A DNA stretch of 21,283 nt, taken from a virus. The stretch spans positions 1 to 21,283 of the IMG/VR virus record IMGVR_UViG_3300010354_000821, one strand, 5' to 3'. Positions within the stretch are counted from its first letter, which is position 1. The number at the start of each line of letters is the position of its first letter. The notes under the pieces are model-generated. The model ran no database searches. It was not told the origin of the DNA and saw only the letters and a list, made by a program, of their open reading frames with translations. Position numbers and translations under genes: made by a program. Positions 9,941 through 21,283 of this stretch are shown in pieces.

Positions 9941-12900
9941 TTAAATCTCCATTAGATACCAACCTTGTTGGTCGGAAGGAATGCCATTTCCATCACCATC
10001 AGTATCACCAGAGTAAATTAATCCAAATCCAGCATTTGGTGTATTGACAATCAATTCACCACCTGCATATGCACTACCAAGTCCACCTAAATTACTGCCA
10101 GTTGAGCTATTTTGTAATCTAACACCTGCTGGAGCTCTAATAATCAGATTAATTGCAAAATTCAATACGCCACCAACATCAACAATTCTAACAATATCTC
10201 CAGTTATAGCATTTGAAGGTAATCTAAGGACTAGGTTAGATGATGGTCTTACTAGATACTGTAAATTTGGTTTTAAATTATATGCAGTAGAATCGGTGTT
10301 TCCTTGTGTAGAAACAAAGACTGTCTTTCTACCACCATTGATATTATAGAAATTATTTTCACCAAATGCATCGATTGACGCATCTTGCTTAATTCTGAAT
10401 GGTTTAGCACCACTAACACCTAACCCGTTTACTGATAAAGTATTTACTCCAGCAGAAGGAGAAGCAGTAGAATTTCCATTTACAGTGAGATATCTGCCAA
10501 CAAAAGTATCACCAGTTTGAGCATCAACCGTAAATCTAGAAGTAAATACATTAGTTACTGTTTCGGCGTTACTAGAATTTGCTAGTGTGCCAACCGCAAA
10601 ATCATCTCCTGCTCTTAAAGTACCAGCAATCTTAGTATTTCCAGTATCACCCAATACTTCAAGTGCTAGATTTACAGCTCCATCAACTCTACCTTTATCA
10701 AAATTACCAGAAGTATAGAAAGAATCTTTATAAATTTTAAAATCTGCACCATCATACAATTTAGTATCTCCACTAGCAGACTCGACAAAGAATTTAGGAA
10801 TAGATCCATTGGTGATTACAAAATATTGTCTTCCTGGAGTAGATGTTGTGGTGTTACCACTTAATTCAATAGAGTTATGTACTTTTAAATTTCCTCCTCC
10901 AGATTGAGATATCGCAGGTCCAACAGATGTGCTGGATGGTGCTTGATAATAATCTGCTAATGCAAGGTCATTTGCTGGATTTTCACTATTTTGACTGGTA
11001 TCATAACCAATAATAACATCTCCAATAATTTGAGTATTTCCTGTAGTGGAAATAGTTTTGAGCATTTGTAAAGGATTCTTTGGCAACACTGTTGTGCCAA
11101 AATCACCATTATTAATAACAAATGCTTGAGCATCGGAAGTATTAATCTGACTAATTCTCACATATTCTTCATTTTGAAGTCCCTTATTAATTCTTAGTAA
11201 ATCACCTAAACGTAAAGTACCAGAGAATTCAGCAATATTAACGGTAGTTGCTGTAGCAAGTACTGGATTTGGGAAAATATATGAGGCATTTTCTTGTTTT
11301 ACTAAACGATATAACCTCTCTCCATCTGGATGTGAAGTTCTAGCAGTACCGTCTTGTGCTCTCTCAACTCTTACAGTATAAGTAGTTGGAGAATCTGGAT
11401 TGAATGAAGTTGGGAAAGAAACAGTTTTAACAATTTCCGTGCCAATCAAATATAGTTGGTTAATTGCAATTCCTCTTGGATTGTTAATAGGTAACGTCCA
11501 AGTGCCATCTGTATTTAAGAAGCTATTATCTCCCCAAGGTAAATCACCAGCAGTATCTACAAATGTTTGTGATAATCCAATTCTAGCTGTGCCAGCATTT
11601 GTAGCGCCACCAATTAAACCAATTGTTATTAAACCACCAGAATTATTTTGTAATGTAAACCCTGCAAGATCTCTTTCTCTTACATAGTAGACAGTATTTA
11701 CAGAAACTCCAGACAAGTTTCCAACATCTATAAATCTAACAGCATCATTTTGACTAAACCAATGACCTTCTACCAACAACTTATTGCTAGTAACTGTCTG
11801 GACATTTGCAGCACCATCAACACTATCACTTACTGAATAATAATCAATGTTTAGATTTGCAAGACTACCAGTAGCTTGATTAAATCCAATTCCAGTGGTA
11901 ACGCTACCAGTTGCACTAGTTGTTGTAACATTGCTGCCAGTATTTGAATAAGTAAATGTAGTGCTATCAACTACAGTAATAGAAACTGTATTAACCGTAG
12001 CAAAACTATCAAAACTACATCTTACTGAAACAAGATTTCCAGTAGCTAAATTATGTGGATTTACAGTAACTATTGTTGCTACATTAGCATTTCTAGCAAC
12101 AGAGAAAATCCTGATAGAACCCAAGACATTTCTATCTACCCCAACACTAGAATTTCTAAAACCACCATTCTGTGTAACATCAGATTCAAAAAATGCTGCT
12201 CCAGCAACTTTAATACCATGTCTGATATTAGTAAATCCAGCAACACCACCGAGATTCAAATTACCAACTGAAGATCCAATAGAAAGAGTATTTAATCCTT
12301 CAGTAAATATACTAAATTCACCAGTAGTAGATGTTGTATTGATTATTCCACCATTAATTGTTAAAATACCATCTAAAACTGTTTGATAGTTTTTAACTCT
12401 AAATCTACTTGATGCTCTATTTTCAAAAGCACCACCCAAAGTTATTAAGGAAGAAGTAGTATTTGGAGTATTAGGTACTGTGCCAAGATTTATTACAGAA
12501 TCAGTAGAATTTGTATGAATATTTAATCTTGTTTGTCCAGTAGCTGCTGTGGCAATATTGATTGTTTGACTACTTGCTGCATTTCCAACATTGATAGTCT
12601 GAGAAGAAGTAGTTAGATTGCCAAGATTAATAGTAGTAGCATATCCAGATAAAGTTAAATTAGAAGTTCCAGATTGATTTGCGATAGAAAATGCGCCAGA
12701 TGTTGATCTAATATCTCCACCATTTACATCAATATCACTTTGGAAAGTAAAGTCACCTGTAATTCTAGCATCACCAGAAACAACTAAGTTTTTATCTAAA
12801 GCACCATCACCAACATTAATACCAATTCTTCCCCCGCCAAGATCAGCAGTTGCGCCTGGAGAAGGAAGTGGCACCGTAGAAATTCTGAATGTAGCTGTTG

Positions 12901-15900
12901 TATCTGGATTTGCACTATCTCCACCAACAATAAATGCCTTATTAGTATTAGAGAAAGTTGCTAAATCAGTAAAGTTATTTTGTAACTTACCACTAATAAA
13001 AGCATTACCAACTACATCTAAATTGGCTCTAGGATCGGTAGAAGTAGTAACATATCCAACATTCCAATCGGTAGAATTAGCTCTAGCAACAGTATTAATT
13101 CCTAGTCTATAATCGCCATATTGAGATGTTCTGGTTCTAATTGATTCAGATCCAATTACACCTACTTCTTTCCATTGGGAATCAGATCTAGCGATTTCAA
13201 TAGTTGGTTGGACTATAGATACAACAGAATAAACATATGGAGGAGATCCAATTAGAGTTGCTTCAGATGCTCTAGTCGTTAATAGATACACATAACTATT
13301 AGAAGCATTATACTCATACCCCTCGGTAGGATTATTATAAACAGTATGGACTCCATTCAATACTGCCAATCTATCAATTGCACCAGTAATACGTATTTGC
13401 GTATTTGTGGTGATTCCCAAAGACGCACCTGGATTAGTCGTGCTAAAATTAACTTTTCCAACTTGGAAAATTAATTTAATGATATTAAGATTAGGATAAA
13501 ATTGTATTCCAGTGATATCAATGCTAGATTCTTGTCCAGCAGCTGCATTTAGTCTATACGCAGAGAATGTATTAGCATATACCCATCCCAAAGATCCAGA
13601 ATATCCAACTTCAGCACCTTTAAGAACTACATCTCCCGAAAGAGGGACGCTAGATCCAAATTGCAATGTTTGGTTAGAATTGATTCTTGCTCTCAATCCA
13701 GAAGTATCTTGATTCGGAGTATTGTTATTAATTGCTGTGCGGAATGAATAACGCTGGGTGCCGCGTGTATTCATATCAAAAATAGCAGCTCTTACTCTAT
13801 TCTTATCAATGATAATATCGCCAGCTTTTGTCGTATCAATTAATGGATCATCATCGCCAGGCAATAATGCTTGTCTATTACCAGGACGTGATACAACCCT
13901 CAATGATGGAGGAGTCATTATACCATTAAATTCAGGATCAACATTAACTTCTACAGGAGAGTTAAAGAAGTTTTTAAGATTTGGTGGAGCATTAAGAGTA
14001 ATAATATTCTCAAATGTTACGGGATCTTCAAATACCGTAACGAGACTTCCTAGATCACCAGCATCTGCCTCTTCTTCTTCAAGAATAATAGGCTCTACAA
14101 ATGATTCTTCACCAGTAATAGCATTAATCTTCTTGTTACCAATATACAACTCACCGTTAGAGTTAATACCAGTGTAGAATACAATACCAGCGTCTTGCTT
14201 CTTCGCCTGTGCGTAGAAGTCTTGTACCGAAGTAAGAATAACAGTCTGTCTTGCTGGGAAACCAGTTGAGTAGTTACCAGGACCGAAACCTAGATATTCA
14301 AACGTGTGGTTACCAGCACGAGCAATCGATGGTCTACGAAGCTCAACATACAATCTTTGCTCTAATGGGTATGCAGAATCACCAGCAATAGGTATTAATC
14401 TTTCTTCTGCACCAGATGCTGCTGCACCAGGAAGAGCTTTAAGCACATTATTACCAGTAAACGTATAATTACCAGATCCAGGATCCTGAGTAAAATCTAA
14501 TACTGCTTCTTTAGTTAATGAATTTTTAGCATCATTAATCGAAACAGATCCATGAACGTAATTATCTGCCGCACAAACAGATGCTGGTGGGTCTACGATT
14601 TGAATATTCTGATTTCCACCTAATTCATCAGCTCCATCATATTGGAAGAGAAGAGGATCATTTTTATATGCAAGAGGATATAATCTAGATACTGGTTGAC
14701 TAAACTTAAAGTTTCTAAAGTTTGTGCCGACGCCCGCGCCCGTTGGATATGGAGAAATATCACCACGAATAGCTGTTAGATAATATACACCATCTTGCTG
14801 ACGCGGAATTCTTCTTTGAATTTCATCAATTTTATAGATGTAATATGATTGCTCCAAATCTTCAACATCTTCGACGCTCATGACTCTATATTGTCTAGCA
14901 GCATCATCAGTAATAATATCGCCAGGAGTTACAGTATAAACATTAGATGCTTCTACGCCATATAGATATTCAGACTTATCTTCTTTACCGAAGTTTGGTC
15001 TGGATATTAATTCTGCAGTTACATCTGCTTGACCAGAAATTGTTTGACGGAAGAAAGTTTGTGTTTTTTCATCAAAATCAATTTCTCCCTCAACATCCTT
15101 GAGAATAAGATAGTTAAATGTTTCTGTTCCACCTTCAACTGGTTCTGTGCCAAACCAAGAATGCACAATAGCTGATCCAGTGTATTCACCATACCAATCA
15201 ATTCTACTATTTGTCAAAAATTCTCCATTGCCACCTTGAGGTTGAGCAACTTTAACAGTGACAAATCTTTTTGCTTTCAGTGACTCTAAATCTAGTCCAT
15301 GGTCAAATACCACCATTTCTAGATAATCACCAGTTACAATTTTTGCAGATTGAATAGTAAAAGAAATATTAGAAGAAGTGCTGGTGCCAGCAATTCTCTT
15401 TCTATTCGTTGGATTGTAAGGATCGTATGTTACCGCTGCTTGAGATGAAGTGGCGGGCAATCCAAGTCTCTTAGGATTCTGCACTCCAGTTTCAAAGAAA
15501 GTAGCAGTCTTAGGATCATTTTGTGCAACAGGCTTGAGAAGAAGTCTTTGTGGTAAAAGTTTTCTTGTCTCGTCCGTTCTAATCTTCATTACAATTCCAT
15601 TAATAGGATCTCTAACATCATCACGATAGTTAGGAATCACATAACGGAAACGATATACCTTATCTGACTTATCTCTAGCATCATCTGCTCTATAGAAGAA
15701 TGAATCAGGCGTCTTTTCTGGTTTATTTGCATAAGAAGATCCAAGATTAGGATCATTTAGTGTCAAACGAGCGTAAATTTCATTAGTGGAAAGAAGAGTC
15801 TTGATAAACCAACCAGACTGTAATGGATCATATCCAAATGGGCTTCTCTTTCTGTTTGCAAATACTTGGAAAGAATATGTGAATGGGAAATTGAACTGCA

Positions 15901-18900
15901 ATGCGTTTTGTCTATTAATTGCATCGCTTTCAGTTAGATAAATTGAGAATTGATTATTTGTGGTATATGTGGCAGGACGACCAACATAAAAAGTTCTATT
16001 AATTTCTAATCTGCCACCACTTGTCTTCGCAGGTAAAGTATTTAATGCCGCACCAATCGCTTGACCATTAACAAGATTTTCTTCTAATGGATAGAAGAAT
16101 ACTTTTTGCACTTGGACACCAGCAATGCCAGTGTCAAATACATGATTTGTGCTGGTTTGGAATACTCTCGATGAAACCAATGAGCAAGTATAACGATGCA
16201 AATCGTAATTTACATCTGTCAAATACTGATGAACTTCAATCTGCACATCTGGGTCCAACCCATTTGTTTCGGAAGAATAAATGTAGTTACCCGCAGTTGC
16301 ATTTTCTCTAGAAGTAGCAAGCATGAATACTTGTCCATCATTAAACTGAGAAGTAGCACCTCCAGCAGAATAATCAAACGGAGCAGTTATTTTACCAGGA
16401 GCAATTACATAATAAACTTTATTGCTTTCAAAACCTTTTGGTAGTCTAATTAGTCTCTTGTCAACATTAACTGGTCTACCAGTAGTGCTATCAACTCTTG
16501 CTCTTGCAACCAATCTAACTGGAGTAGCAGTTTCTAAGTTGTGTGGGTTAGCACCAGCGACACGGAATAATGTTGCTCTCTGTGCGAACGAAGAAGTATT
16601 AACCAACTGAGAAACTAATGGCTCTGCATCTGCACCATTGCGAATAATGCTTTCAATAACACGCATCTTCTCAATGATAGCATCCTTAGTGCCAGCACAC
16701 TTGTTAGTTGGAGTTGTAGTATCGTTGATAATACTATTATCTCTTTGTGGTCTTTGTCTTTCTACATACTCACTGCTTCCAAAAGTTTTTGGTGGAAGAG
16801 CAGTTGTATTTGTGAGAGCACCTAGAAGAATATCAAATTCTGTTGCAATTGCATAAGCAACATCAGCACAAACAGGCACGCCAGCGGTGGTAGTGTCAAT
16901 CGAGTTATCTACAGAATAATTTAATAAAGTATTTGAATTCTTAACATATAGAGGATCAGTGGATGTGCCATCACCAGTTCTCCAATTACGCATAGCAAGA
17001 ATAGCAAGATCTCTTGCTTTCTTATATGCATAAACACTCATATCCAATTCACCAACTAAAGACTCAGCACCAGCATTATATCTGAGAGGTGGATATTGAT
17101 AATTACCATTTTGTAATTTAGTAAGAATAATACCAAACAACGAATCTATAGTATTTCTTACATCTAAACAAGAATTAGGATTATCATTTGGAATATTTGG
17201 ACCAGCAACACCAATTTGAGCAGGACCAGGAGAAATATCAAAATCTCTTACATTCAACTGATTAGTAACTGCTTTGAAGCAAAGGTCTCTAGCTGCACTA
17301 AATGCAGTAACTGATTGCGAAATTTCTCCAGCAAGACCATTAGTGATAAGAGTATTGCCAGTGCTATCAAAATAGAATTTAGTCGCAGTAATAATATTAT
17401 TATTGCCACCAAGAGCAAGGTCATCTGCGATAGCATCAACAATATAACCAATATCTCTCTTACATTTTGCTTGGAATTCTGGTGCGCTTCCATAATTAAT
17501 AGTTGGAAGTGCTGGGTTTTGCGTAGTTGCAGTTACAAGATCACCCTGACGAATTCTTGCAAAGATAATATTGCCAAGAGTATCTAGAGTTTGCTGGACA
17601 TTAGTGCAGGACTGCAAATCGGTGTTGTTAGCAGTATTACCTGGAGTGCCAAATACGCTAACTCCAGACTCAGGAGTATTTGGAGCGGGGTCACCAGTAA
17701 GCGATAAATCTTTTACTGTTAGTTGATTTGTAATTGCTCTCTTCATTTGAGCAATTGCTGCATTGTATGCAAAAATAGATTGCGTTTCTTCTCCTTGAAG
17801 ACCACCAGTAATCCATGCTTGCTCCACAGTAGATACAGTAACAACAATATTATCAACTAAATCTACACCACCAATAGCAGATCCTGGAATAGTAATTGTG
17901 TTACCAACTGCATACTTGTATCCCCCAGTAGCAATTGTAATACTACCAATAGCACCAGTAGAATTCCTATTTACATTAAATGTGGCTCCAATACCACTAC
18001 CATTTGTAGTAGTTGCAATACCACTATAAACTCTATTTGCTCTATTTGCAAGAGTAGTGCCAGCAGTATTTGTAAATGTCAATACTTTACCATTTACTTT
18101 ATCCGCAACAAAATATTGACGAATAAAATCAATAGAATAAGAATTTCCTAGCGTAGTTAAATCTGTAGAAACTGCGTCAATGAAATATCCAATATCACGC
18201 TTACACTTATTCTCTAAATCAGTTGGTTGTGGATTTGGAAGACCATTTGTAACAAGAGCATTATATGCGTTATTAATAATTTCAGCACGATTTTGCTGAA
18301 TTAAACGATAAGAATCTTTATATCTTGAAAATACATTTGTTTGTGCATCTCCGCCGTTGGTAAACCCACTTCCACCATAATAAAAATCAGGATAATCAAT
18401 AGCAAGTTTTGCAGCTGCTTTATCGACAATTTCTCTTCTATTAGCAAGAATAAGATTTTTAGCATCAAAATAACGAGAAGGAGCGCCAACATATGCTTCT
18501 GCAGCTTCAACAATTCCAGAATTGCCAAAGTTTCCAAGGTCTTTAATTACACCCTCAAGGACATACTTAATATCTCTCTTGCACTTAGTATCATTAGGAA
18601 CTGTTACAGCAGGATATTGTGCTTTAGCAAGATTTAGTGCTTCTTCTGCAATAAATTCTTTATTAAGATTGATGAGAGTGCCAGCATCAAAGTTTCTACC
18701 AGAAGAAGTAGCAAACTTACCCTGTGTTAATTCAAAATTAAGTGTAACTCCACCTGCAGATGCACCAGTTGCAATAATTGTAGCAGTTGCATTTACATCT
18801 TCAGTATCATTTCTGTTACCTAATTTGAATTGTGTTGTACTAATAATTTCTCTTACATATGTCCCAGCAGGAATAGGATTAGTCTGTCCAGCAGCAACTG

Positions 18901-21283
18901 TTGCTGTAACAGACATACCCTCGACAATACCAATTGTGGTGATACCCGCAGGGACAGTTACTGTTGCCTGATTAATAAAAGTAGAGCAATTATTAATATA
19001 GAAATTCCAATTACGCATTGCTCCAATGGCAAGACTTCTAGCGTAGTTGAAAGCATCTAATGTCTCTTCTTTTTCACTTTCAATATAATCTAGATTATTA
19101 CCAGTGTAATATGCCTGAGCAGCCTGTACAGCATTGACATTACCACCAACGCGAAGGTCATTTGCAACTGCTTCTAGAATATACCCAACGTCTCTTCTGC
19201 ACTTGTTAATGCTAATGTCTCTGGTTAGAAGATATGGATACTTACGAGTAATATATCCGTATGTTTCAGATGCAATAAAGTCTCTATTGAGGTCAATTAA
19301 GTTTGCTGCATCCTGGTCATTATTAGATACTCCAGTAGATACAGTTGGACTCAATGTTGACATTGCAACACTCCACTTTCTGTATCCAGCAGGAGCAATT
19401 TCGGCGCTGCGAATAGATCCAGTAAATCCTGTAGCAGAATCTAGTTTTACATAAATTTTGTCATGTGCTTTTGCACCAATTCTAAATCCACCAACAACAG
19501 TTGCTGGTTTGATGAGAGGATCTCCAGCAGTCTCATGTCCCAAGTAAAGTTTTGTAGTAATAGAACTAGTGCCGCCTGGACCATCAAAATTCTGTGCGTT
19601 ACTATTTCTAGATTTAATTTGATTAAAAGTATAATACTGTAGTTTCTTGGTCGTAGTTGTTACTTTTTTCGGTGGGACAATGTGTGAAATATATCCACCT
19701 TGATCCTGAGCAAAGGAATATCCTTTGTAACCAATAGCATGTAGAGAGGTATTACCAAAGTTAGAGTTAGAGTTGGTGATCGACATGTCACCACCAGACT
19801 CCATCAAGAAGTGGTCAGCGAAACCTACAGCGAAGATCGAAACGTTCTGAATGAAAGCATCATTCGATGCCTTGACGTGGAAGTTTCTCCAATCATCTTT
19901 CCAATATGCATCACCTTTCGTGTGGTAAGGTGTGGTTGCAAACGCATCAGTTAGAGGCGCTTGATTCCATGTGTTGCTGAATTCGTCGTAGCGAATAAAC
20001 GCTCTATCGTCTCTCTGTAGCGAAACACCCGTATATTGGGCGATAACCATCGACTTGAAACCACTTGCCTTGCTACCATCAGCGTGGATGCCGCAGATAC
20101 CCCACGTAGAGCGGATAGAAACGTTGAAGACGTATGGTGAGGCAGATTCTACCGAGTCAACTTCTGCCTGTGTAATGGCGTTTGTATCGAGCGTAGGAGG
20201 CGTAATTGGTTGTCCGATTCTATCACCTAGACCAACAGCAGCTGCATTCTTACCTTCTACACGGTAACTGAATTCTTTGGGATCAGTGATGCTGATTCCT
20301 CTAACTGCAAATACACCAGTGAGAGGATCATTAGCGAGAGGAATAGCAGTTGTTGCTCCAGCTGGTAGAGTTGAGCGAAGATTACTTACAGCAACTGCTT
20401 GTCCTACATAATAACCATGATTCGTCTTTGTTTTAACAGTAACGTCAAGTGCAGTAGTGCCTACAACGTTATTAACTGTAATAGAATCAATACGAATAGC
20501 ATCCTGCAGAGGACCAACGATTCTGTTTTCTTGTGGTCTTTGAGTGAATTCACCAGGATCATCAATTGTTGGTTGATATAAGGAGAATGCACGAGCAATC
20601 TTTCTGTAAAGAAGACCAAGATCTTCTCTGCTAGCGAATTCAAAGTTACAAATTTTGTGGTGCGAATAATATGGCACCTGAGTAATTGTAGAATTAGGTT
20701 GCGAATAAACCTTACCAATTCCTGCTTGAGCATCATATAATGGTGAATTTGGCTCTACATCACCATCAAGAATAGTAAACTGCCAGAAGTAACAACCACC
20801 AGTTACGTTGAATAGGGTGCAACGTGGAACATCTTTATCTGCAGGATCTGGAACATATAGAGGATGCAGGCGAGTTCTACGAAGGTCCATACCAACGAGA
20901 GATGTGCCTCTAGGAATGGTAGCACCACCGTTAGGACCATTAAACTTATAGAGAATATTGTTAGGATTTTTAAGGTCAACAATAGAATTGTCTTCCCATT
21001 CTTGTGTTGCCTGGTTGAATGCAAAAGGAACAATTTCCTCTGGATTCATGATACCAGGACGGTTATCAATATAGTGGTTGCCAGGCGACAACATAATTGT
21101 AAATTGGTCAAAACGATCATTCTCTTGACCAGGAACATACGAGTACCTAGCAACCTCTAGGAATGCTCTCTGAATTGTGAGGAAAGGACGGGTTGGGGAG
21201 TTGCCTCTATTGTCTAATGCATCAGAAGCATTAAAATCGTCAGGTGAAACATATAGATATCTTCCAGTTTTACTAGAAATTAA
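9941..21283 (-). CDS. Giant tail fibre / spike structural protein, N-terminus beyond the right edge
   Basis: The frame is open for all 63 codons between the ATG at 21094 and the right edge, so that ATG is internal and at least 3,780 residues are encoded. The first part contains TGRYLYVSPDDFNASDALDN and then PFLTIQRAFLEVARYSYVPG and DQFTIMLSPGNHYIDNRPG, a pattern common at the start of tailspike-like beta-helices. Further beta-helix character follows (DMSITNSNSNFGNTSLHAIG, near 19750). An alpha-helical repeat domain spans about 17000-19335. Beta-rich modules follow, then a fibre shaft (12120-12960), and a C-terminal beta domain ending GWYLMEI. It is probably the main long fibre or baseplate spike, upstream of its tip genes. 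Function is inferred from architecture and context. Large giant-phage-type length makes it one of the longest genes such a phage would carry. Confidence 0.85.
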   Translation of the reverse strand, partial: LISSKTGRYLYVSPDDFNASDALDNRGNSPTRPFLTIQRAFLEVARYSYVPGQENDRFDQFTIMLSPGNHYIDNRPGIMNPEEIVPFAFNQATQEWEDNSIVDLKNPNNILYKFNGPNGGATIPRGTSLVGMDLRRTRLHPLYVPDPADKDVPRCTLFNVTGGCYFWQFTILDGDVEPNSPLYDAQAGIGKVYSQPNSTITQVPYYSHHKICNFEFASREDLGLLYRKIARAFSLYQPTIDDPGEFTQRPQENRIVGPLQDAIRIDSITVNNVVGTTALDVTVKTKTNHGYYVGQAVAVSNLRSTLPAGATTAIPLANDPLTGVFAVRGISITDPKEFSYRVEGKNAAAVGLGDRIGQPITPPTLDTNAITQAEVDSVESASPYVFNVSIRSTWGICGIHADGSKASGFKSMVIAQYTGVSLQRDDRAFIRYDEFSNTWNQAPLTDAFATTPYHTKGDAYWKDDWRNFHVKASNDAFIQNVSIFAVGFADHFLMESGGDMSITNSNSNFGNTSLHAIGYKGYSFAQDQGGYISHIVPPKKVTTTTKKLQYYTFNQIKSRNSNAQNFDGPGGTSSITTKLYLGHETAGDPLIKPATVVGGFRIGAKAHDKIYVKLDSATGFTGSIRSAEIAPAGYRKWSVAMSTLSPTVSTGVSNNDQDAANLIDLNRDFIASETYGYITRKYPYLLTRDISINKCRRDVGYILEAVANDLRVGGNVNAVQAAQAYYTGNNLDYIESEKEETLDAFNYARSLAIGAMRNWNFYINNCSTFINQATVTVPAGITTIGIVEGMSVTATVAAGQTNPIPAGTYVREIISTTQFKLGNRNDTEDVNATATIIATGASAGGVTLNFELTQGKFATSSGRNFDAGTLINLNKEFIAEEALNLAKAQYPAVTVPNDTKCKRDIKYVLEGVIKDLGNFGNSGIVEAAEAYVGAPSRYFDAKNLILANRREIVDKAAAKLAIDYPDFYYGGSGFTNGGDAQTNVFSRYKDSYRLIQQNRAEIINNAYNALVTNGLPNPQPTDLENKCKRDIGYFIDAVSTDLTTLGNSYSIDFIRQYFVADKVNGKVLTFTNTAGTTLANRANRVYSGIATTTNGSGIGATFNVNRNSTGAIGSITIATGGYKYAVGNTITIPGSAIGGVDLVDNIVVTVSTVEQAWITGGLQGEETQSIFAYNAAIAQMKRAITNQLTVKDLSLTGDPAPNTPESGVSVFGTPGNTANNTDLQSCTNVQQTLDTLGNIIFARIRQGDLVTATTQNPALPTINYGSAPEFQAKCKRDIGYIVDAIADDLALGGNNNIITATKFYFDSTGNTLITNGLAGEISQSVTAFSAARDLCFKAVTNQLNVRDFDISPGPAQIGVAGPNIPNDNPNSCLDVRNTIDSLFGIILTKLQNGNYQYPPLRYNAGAESLVGELDMSVYAYKKARDLAILAMRNWRTGDGTSTDPLYVKNSNTLLNYSVDNSIDTTTAGVPVCADVAYAIATEFDILLGALTNTTALPPKTFGSSEYVERQRPQRDNSIINDTTTPTNKCAGTKDAIIEKMRVIESIIRNGADAEPLVSQLVNTSSFAQRATLFRVAGANPHNLETATPVRLVARARVDSTTGRPVNVDKRLIRLPKGFESNKVYYVIAPGKITAPFDYSAGGATSQFNDGQVFMLATSRENATAGNYIYSSETNGLDPDVQIEVHQYLTDVNYDLHRYTCSLVSSRVFQTSTNHVFDTGIAGVQVQKVFFYPLEENLVNGQAIGAALNTLPAKTSGGRLEINRTFYVGRPATYTTNNQFSIYLTESDAINRQNALQFNFPFTYSFQVFANRKRSPFGYDPLQSGWFIKTLLSTNEIYARLTLNDPNLGSSYANKPEKTPDSFFYRADDARDKSDKVYRFRYVIPNYRDDVRDPINGIVMKIRTDETRKLLPQRLLLKPVAQNDPKTATFFETGVQNPKRLGLPATSSQAAVTYDPYNPTNRKRIAGTSTSSNISFTIQSAKIVTGDYLEMVVFDHGLDLESLKAKRFVTVKVAQPQGGNGEFLTNSRIDWYGEYTGSAIVHSWFGTEPVEGGTETFNYLILKDVEGEIDFDEKTQTFFRQTISGQADVTAELISRPNFGKEDKSEYLYGVEASNVYTVTPGDIITDDAARQYRVMSVEDVEDLEQSYYIYKIDEIQRRIPRQQDGVYYLTAIRGDISPYPTGAGVGTNFRNFKFSQPVSRLYPLAYKNDPLLFQYDGADELGGNQNIQIVDPPASVCAADNYVHGSVSINDAKNSLTKEAVLDFTQDPGSGNYTFTGNNVLKALPGAAASGAEERLIPIAGDSAYPLEQRLYVELRRPSIARAGNHTFEYLGFGPGNYSTGFPARQTVILTSVQDFYAQAKKQDAGIVFYTGINSNGELYIGNKKINAITGEESFVEPIILEEEEADAGDLGSLVTVFEDPVTFENIITLNAPPNLKNFFNSPVEVNVDPEFNGIMTPPSLRVVSRPGNRQALLPGDDDPLIDTTKAGDIIIDKNRVRAAIFDMNTRGTQRYSFRTAINNNTPNQDTSGLRARINSNQTLQFGSSVPLSGDVVLKGAEVGYSGSLGWVYANTFSAYRLNAAAGQESSIDITGIQFYPNLNIIKLIFQVGKVNFSTTNPGASLGITTNTQIRITGAIDRLAVLNGVHTVYNNPTEGYEYNASNSYVYLLTTRASEATLIGSPPYVYSVVSIVQPTIEIARSDSQWKEVGVIGSESIRTRTSQYGDYRLGINTVARANSTDWNVGYVTTSTDPRANLDVVGNAFISGKLQNNFTDLATFSNTNKAFIVGGDSANPDTTATFRISTVPLPSPGATADLGGGRIGINVGDGALDKNLVVSGDARITGDFTFQSDIDVNGGDIRSTSGAFSIANQSGTSNLTLSGYATTINLGNLTTSSQTINVGNAASSQTINIATAATGQTRLNIHTNSTDSVINLGTVPNTPNTTSSLITLGGAFENRASSRFRVKNYQTVLDGILTINGGIINTTSTTGEFSIFTEGLNTLSIGSSVGNLNLGGVAGFTNIRHGIKVAGAAFFESDVTQNGGFRNSSVGVDRNVLGSIRIFSVARNANVATIVTVNPHNLATGNLVSVRCSFDSFATVNTVSITVVDSTTFTYSNTGSNVTTTSATGSVTTGIGFNQATGSLANLNIDYYSVSDSVDGAANVQTVTSNKLLVEGHWFSQNDAVRFIDVGNLSGVSVNTVYYVRERDLAGFTLQNNSGGLITIGLIGGATNAGTARIGLSQTFVDTAGDLPWGDNSFLNTDGTWTLPINNPRGIAINQLYLIGTEIVKTVSFPTSFNPDSPTTYTVRVERAQDGTARTSHPDGERLYRLVKQENASYIFPNPVLATATTVNIAEFSGTLRLGDLLRINKGLQNEEYVRISQINTSDAQAFVINNGDFGTTVLPKNPLQMLKTISTTGNTQIIGDVIIGYDTSQNSENPANDLALADYYQAPSSTSVGPAISQSGGGNLKVHNSIELSGNTTTSTPGRQYFVITNGSIPKFFVESASGDTKLYDGADFKIYKDSFYTSGNFDKGRVDGAVNLALEVLGDTGNTKIAGTLRAGDDFAVGTLANSSNAETVTNVFTSRFTVDAQTGDTFVGRYLTVNGNSTASPSAGVNTLSVNGLGVSGAKPFRIKQDASIDAFGENNFYNINGGRKTVFVSTQGNTDSTAYNLKPNLQYLVRPSSNLVLRLPSNAITGDIVRIVDVGGVLNFAINLIIRAPAGVRLQNSSTGSNLGGLGSAYAGGELIVNTPNAGFGLIYSGDTDGDGNGIPSDQQGWYLMEI
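11630..12070 (-). repeat. Two adjacent small beta modules in the giant protein
   Basis: The first copy (11930-12070) reads VNPHNLATGNLVSVRCSF, then VNTVSITVVDSTTFTYSNTG. The second (11630-11780) reads EGHWFSQNDAVRFIDVGNLS, then VNTVYYVRERDLAGFTLQNN. Both follow the pattern of an N/H/G turn, a V-rich strand, VNTV and a final (F)T(F/L) strand, and look like internal duplications of the module at 20245-20465. Confidence 0.55.
12120..12960 (-). repeat. Repetitive beta-structured fibre shaft
   Basis: The protein here is built from short Gly/Asn/Ser/Thr-rich strands: DFTFQSDIDVNGGDIRS, INLGNL, QTINVGNAASSQTINIATAA, LNIHTNS, VINLG, LITLGG, LSIGSSVGNLNLGG. The tightest part (about 12505-12640) repeats SSQTIN(V/I) within a few residues. 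This is typical of trimeric phage fibre shafts, in which each short repeat forms one turn or strand. Confidence 0.7.
16985..19335 (-). repeat. Alpha-helical repeat domain with CKRD signature
   Basis: Four copies of a 21-residue signature lie at 19139-19201 (CRRDVGYILEAVANDL..), 18521-18583 (CKRDIKYVLEGVIKDL..), 18143-18205 (CKRDIGYFIDAVSTDL..) and 17402-17464 (CKRDIGYIVDAIADDL..), each ending in G-N. Before the first three copies comes a 'LI-x-x-NR-x-(F/I)I' helix ending near a 'YP'. After three copies, and once alone near 17000, comes '(A/Y)-x-x-AR-x-LA-x-x-AM-x-NW' or a variant. The unit is therefore 100-200 residues, helical, and imperfectly repeated. It is unusual inside an otherwise beta-rich fibre. 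Confidence 0.8.
20245..20465 (-). repeat. Small beta module, copy in the N-terminal part of the giant protein
   Basis: The module reads VTVKTKTNHGYYVGQAVAVS ... TGVFAVRGISITDPKEFSYR. It matches a common phage structural pattern, 'NHG(L)-x-x-G-x-x-V-x-(I/V) ... G-x-(F/Y)-x-V-x-x-(I/V) ... (F/T)-F-x-Y'. Similar copies recur near 16395-16555 and at 11930-12070 and 11630-11780. Confidence 0.55.

Follow-up and report, generated by a model that had tools for sequence, protein, structure and literature searches.

Why should a giant virus tail protein carry a block of helical repeats, each led by a cysteine in the same short motif? The block lies in the minus-strand tail cluster of a T4-like cyanophage, which forms the window (the whole stretch of DNA analysed, 21,283 nucleotides). 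The tail-fibre open reading frame (ORF, 9941–21283) encodes a protein of more than 3,717 aa and is open at the 5′ window edge, so its true start may lie outside the view. The ORF matches PHROG 4527 (3143 bits), 529 and 5342, all of them tail-fibre families, and three collar-domain proteins (short-fibre genes) are encoded downstream, which together identify it as a T4-like cyanophage tail fibre.

Four copies of a helical domain

A first-pass annotation had described four homologous 21-residue signatures with a common G-N ending. All four are present exactly, each ending in GN and all on the minus strand. An independent HMM of 52 copies, from which the window and its close orthologues were left out, scores copies 1–4 at 107, 54, 51 and 69 bits (iE 2e-33 to 5e-16) and finds exactly four copies and three weak partial pieces in the window, while no reversed or shuffled window protein exceeds 2.9 bits. 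Because this HMM recovers all four signatures, they are homologous, as had been proposed, and a chance repeat is ruled out. The features are as follows, all on the minus strand.

9941–21283, minus strand: giant tail-fibre ORF, 3,780 aa within the window, 5′ end open at the window edge
19001–19327, minus strand: copy 1, complete, helices A-B-E-F-G (107.3 bits, iE 2e-33); signature CRRDVGYILEAVANDLRVGGN at 19139–19201, Cys codon 19199–19201
about 18722–18970, minus strand: beta-rich insert between copies 1 and 2 (low-confidence model)
18476–18706, minus strand: copy 2, helices A-B-E-F, without the G helix (54.0 bits, iE 6e-17); signature CKRDIKYVLEGVIKDLGNFGN at 18521–18583, Cys codon 18581–18583
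18377–18478, minus strand: half-copy after copy 2, helices A and B only, without the C-x-R-D helix (5.5 bits)
18107–18331, minus strand: copy 3, helices A-F (51.2 bits, iE 5e-16); signature CKRDIGYFIDAVSTDLTTLGN at 18143–18205, Cys codon 18203–18205
about 17822–18106, minus strand: beta-rich insert separating helices F and G of copy 3 (low-confidence model)
17705–17800, minus strand: G helix of copy 3, displaced by the insert (2.1 bits alone; consistent in position)
17252–17473, minus strand: copy 4, helices E-F-G, A-B pair missing (68.6 bits, iE 2e-21); signature CKRDIGYIVDAIADDLALGGN at 17402–17464, Cys codon 17462–17464
16964–17062, minus strand: orphan G-like helix (4.0 bits alone)

The half-copy scores weakly alone, and its helix pair also appears in the AlphaFold model of the whole 856-aa block, which is poor (pLDDT 56) and was used for secondary structure only. 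The orphan trailing helix reported earlier is present and helical in the model, but its low score leaves it supported mainly by position. The earlier description of more than 700 residues of helical repeats is overstated, because two predicted beta-rich inserts break the block.

The same tail-fibre block contains a second Cys-led helix repeat, roughly C-x-x-[VT]-x3-[IL], which differs from the C-[KR]-R-D repeat. The first bases of its Cys codons are at 17608, 17170, 16870 and 16699 (minus strand), and two of the four fit a stricter pattern.

Relationship to phycobiliproteins

Copy 1 (18962–19342) was modelled with AlphaFold without templates (pLDDT 85.9, pTM 0.77). The model is neither beta-helical nor disordered, in keeping with the helical fold that had been suggested; it is a compact, globin-like fold with helices A to G. 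The flexible hinge proposed as an alternative finds no support and is ruled out by this compact predicted fold. In a Foldseek search of the PDB, the top 44 matches to the model are all phycobiliproteins. VIA comparison with phycobiliproteins gave Z scores up to 12.1 (rmsd 2.1–3.8 over 105–116 residues), the best being to a phycobilisome chain (Z 12.1, rmsd 2.9 over 111 residues); by the tool's own guidance, unrelated helical models can attain a Z of 12, and its weight comes from agreement with the sequence evidence. Model residues 1–114 map to phycobiliprotein residues 26–28 through about 147, in the same register as the sequence alignment by hhalign. The N-terminal X-Y helical hairpin of phycobiliproteins is absent, the structural match beginning at about residue 27, and in one locus (L025) tandem copies lie about 110 aa apart, leaving no room for it. 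This fold recurs in models that others predicted for the tail proteins of S-CAM1, S-WAM2 and S-PM2.

Individual sequence matches are each weak (PDB E ~0.02; single copies below the Pfam cut-off). The window protein matches Pfam PF00502 (Phycobilisome) with 28.8 bits against a cut-off of 22.2, a score summed over copies, no single window copy passing alone; the matches include 18377–18532, spanning the end of copy 2 and the half-copy, and 18176–18313 within copy 3. Among 14 control genomes, PF00502 is matched only in Synechococcus elongatus. Taken singly, seven of 51 copies match PF00502 at E<1, against one copy for every other family. Single-sequence searches of the PDB (phmmer) returned phycobiliproteins in nine of ten matches (the best, copy 4 against phycocyanin alpha, at E 0.016), and a profile search did so in all but two of 35 (best E 0.019). 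Profile–profile alignment by hhalign with 18 phycobiliproteins gave P 96%, E 4–6e-9 and a score of 53.7 over 105 collinear columns, compared with a mean of 11.2 (sd 2.2, maximum 19.2) for 150 column shuffles. Masking C-x-R-D leaves a score of 27.8 across those 105 columns, so that the match does not depend on the motif alone. Cyanobacterial globins resembling the bilin-biosynthesis-associated globins (BBAG) also align (P 91%, E 1e-6, 98 columns). Identity between the domain and phycobiliproteins is only about 18%.

The chromophore cysteine of phycobiliproteins and of BBAG-1/3 lies within a CXRD motif, and BBAG-1/3 need no lyase to bind bilins (PMC10151467). The C-[KR]-R-D of the window repeat is this bilin-attachment motif, C-x-R-D; it stands at the start of helix E in all four copies, in identical profile register. 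A conserved structural or binding site had been anticipated and is sharpened here to this motif; the relationship to phycobiliproteins had been missed. Among 144 dereplicated phage copies, the Cys is kept in 138, Arg86 in 124 and Asp87 in 143, and two new near-invariants appear, an Asp at +14 and a Tyr at +30 after the Cys. The position of Arg93, an alpha-beta assembly residue of phycobiliproteins, is Asp in 100 of the 144, and the loop before C-x-R-D is shorter than in phycobiliproteins. To judge from the sequences, the pocket residues are retained while features of quaternary assembly are lost. That one Cys is so strictly kept suggests that the pocket has a genuine chemical function.

Conservation differs between sources. 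Cyanophage copies keep C in 61, R in 46 and D in 65 of 65, the motif Arg being replaced by Asp in 12; copies from large environmental contigs are stricter (C 77/79, R 78/79, D 78/79). A C-x-D-D or C-x-T-D variant occurs in giant baseplate-type cyanophage proteins (L039, L190, L192, L195 and L196), in which Arg86 is lost and the Cys and Asp87 are kept in most.

A phycobiliprotein-like fold is thus well supported by the predicted models, and the phage domain is most likely homologous to phycobiliproteins and BBAGs. The repeat very probably represents tandem modules of phycobiliprotein-like, bilin-binding-globin fold in the tail fibre. Each would be a shortened globin with helices A, B, E, F, G and probably part of H, lacking the X-Y hairpin.

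Distribution of the domain and of bilin genes

The helical domain measures ~95 aa and occurs in 1–13 copies per protein in tail-fibre and gp7-type baseplate proteins of T4-like cyanophages. Iterative searching from the four window copies reached 79 copies at <62% identity in viral contigs and phages, with up to 13 copies in one open frame, in both tail-fibre genes and giant gp7-type baseplate genes. Among 50,697 isolate records, the matches were all cyanophages, even when a copy from a non-cyanophage-like contig was the query at E<1, one match (Marine virus AG-345-P14) having no host recorded. Restriction to cyanophages holds for isolates and is not shown for environmental contigs. No cellular domain was found in 146 cyanobacterial genomes (a search without a positive control) or in a scan of genome contigs with one copy as query, so a cellular intermediate was not found. 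In the public record of S-PM2, the coding sequence of the giant tail fibre is annotated as enclosing an array of ~16 tRNA genes with the same orientation (18557–23384).

In cyanophages, bilin genes often accompany the domain. The lyase gene cpeT is present in 18 of 21 domain-bearing cyanophages and in none of four without the domain (Fisher p = 0.003, or 0.013 when restricted to the 22 records tested here for both), both tests ignoring kinship; the cpeT status of S-SM2, Syn9 and P-SSM4 was taken from the CpeT column of PMC3037559. In seven phages (S-PM2, S-CAM1, S-RIM32, S-CAM4, S-WAM2, S-H9-1 and Sf-FR1) cpeT lies 0.3–2.8 kb upstream of the giant tail gene, and in S-RIM2, P-HM2 and S-SCSM2R it lies among tail or baseplate genes without adjoining the domain gene. 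The surroundings of cpeT are a hot spot for cargo genes, where cp12, glutaredoxin and tRNAs also occur. The cpeT of S-H9-1 is unannotated (record positions 32002–32511), and its location matches that in related phages.

Three relatives of the window (L005, L009 and L012) carry a PebS-like bilin reductase at about 900–1830, at most about 450 bp upstream of the tail gene, and another (L020) has CpeT upstream of it. Neither was detected in the stretch examined upstream of the tail gene in L003, L004, L007 and L010. In the isolates examined, pebS lies elsewhere in the genome. The PebS-bearing phages P-SSM2, S-SSM7 and S-PRM1 lack the domain, which rules out PebS as a general partner enzyme.

Thus cpeT or pebS stands beside the tail gene in many cyanophages, and both are absent from several large environmental contigs. 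In such contigs of 118–167 kb with 7–9 copies, no psbA, CpeT or bilin reductase was detected, and the contigs may be incomplete. The large contigs behind L019, L022, L028 and L029 have tandem domains and no detected photosynthesis genes, and the gp23 (capsid) of the L029 contig is nearest to that of jumbo phages of heterotrophs. In these environmental phages, either a tetrapyrrole of another host is used, or the motif serves a purpose for which bilin is not required.

Role of the pocket and relation to known systems

T4-superfamily phages, and cyanophages in particular, would use the domain as a module repeated within their giant tail-fibre and baseplate proteins, most copies serving primarily as compact, rigid units that lengthen or space the fibre. 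What, then, does the pocket do? The low identity, short domain and common helical arrangement could mean that an unrelated helical bundle resembles phycobiliproteins by chance, which we regard as improbable given that the register is the same in the sequence profile, the structure-only alignment and the motif, and that two related families match where shuffles do not. Chemistry of the Cys other than bilin binding, such as a disulfide joining chains at the fibre axis or a metal site formed by the Cys, the two Asp and the Tyr, is somewhat less remote and still unlikely. Fibres are commonly multimeric, and one near-invariant Cys per copy with conserved Asp and Tyr would suit such a site; the phycobiliprotein context of C-x-R-D, the fold and the register of the Cys would go unexplained. 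Reuse for structure only has a better claim, though short of an even chance: a descendant of a bilin-binding globin would bind nothing, and a buried Cys/Arg/Asp/Asp/Tyr network would hold the short globin together. The motif is retained in phages without bilin genes, the two new near-invariants are atypical of phycobiliproteins, and Asp87 is kept in BBAG relatives that have lost the Cys. Against this, a Cys buried for structural reasons should often have given way to Ala, Ser or Val among copies at ~30% identity, yet it persists in nearly every phage copy.

For a chemical role of the pocket, a covalently bound bilin is the leading, if putative, candidate, and we consider it a minority prospect. 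The cysteines of cyanophage C-x-R-D would then carry PEB or PCB supplied by host or phage enzymes, its placement aided by the lyase-like phage CpeT, and the tail could use it for light sensing, quenching, stability or host contact. Such a pigmented virion, which is possible but doubtful, goes beyond the modular reading given above and is compatible with it. It draws on the identity of the attachment motif, on the lyase-free binding by BBAG-1/3, on the occurrence of cpeT solely in domain-bearing cyanophages and on the bilin genes upstream of tail genes in isolates and window relatives. Several observations weigh against it: the 7–9-copy contigs with no detected psbA or bilin genes, at least one with a capsid nearest phages of heterotrophs, keep the motif more strictly; PebS occurs in phages without the domain; cpeT sits in a cargo hot spot, and its co-occurrence test disregards kinship; T-type lyases are known for the Cys-153 site and not Cys-84; and the pre-motif loop is short. 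Our first choice is therefore a structural module whose pocket is conserved, a bilin-bearing virion being the most interesting live option, at less than even odds. Only tentatively do we suggest that cyanophage virions bear covalent bilin on tail-fibre or baseplate domains, with CpeT (and in some phages PebS) serving the virion as well as the host antenna.

What bilin genes do for cyanophages has been described as a mystery (PMC3037559). A tail protein with bilin-site motifs in phages that carry cpeT is a candidate CpeT substrate, and suggests a testable role for these puzzling pigment genes. It would be surprising for host machinery to be put to such a use, a light-harvesting fold with its pigment-site residues being built repeatedly into a virus tail. 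Recognizing it also gives a name to a domain overlooked in hundreds of tail and baseplate proteins of cyanophages, whose annotation goes no further than structural. We found no report linking phycobiliproteins to cyanophage tails in the open-licence literature, and one may exist elsewhere.

The window protein belongs to PHROG 4527, 529 and 5342 over most of its length; these are annotated as tail fibre only, with no phycobiliprotein relationship given. Cyanophage CpeT and PebS, encoded by the same phages and sometimes directly upstream of the domain-bearing tail gene, are bilin-metabolism enzymes or chaperones to which no role beyond assisting the host's light harvesting has so far been ascribed. 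With the BBAGs (Rockwell et al. 2023, PMC10151467), bilin-binding globins of which BBAG-1/3 carry C-x-R-D, the domain shares an alignable sequence; BBAGs, in contrast, are single-domain cellular proteins whose genes cluster with those for heme oxygenase and bilin reductase. With the light-harvesting phycobiliproteins (PF00502; phycocyanin, phycoerythrin and allophycocyanin), it shares the globin-like fold of helices A–G, C-x-R-D at the start of helix E and a collinear profile match. The phage domains differ in forming tandem modules of a giant tail protein without the X-Y hairpin, in having mostly Asp for Arg93, a shorter pre-motif loop and the new Asp and Tyr, and in that their bilin is only putative.
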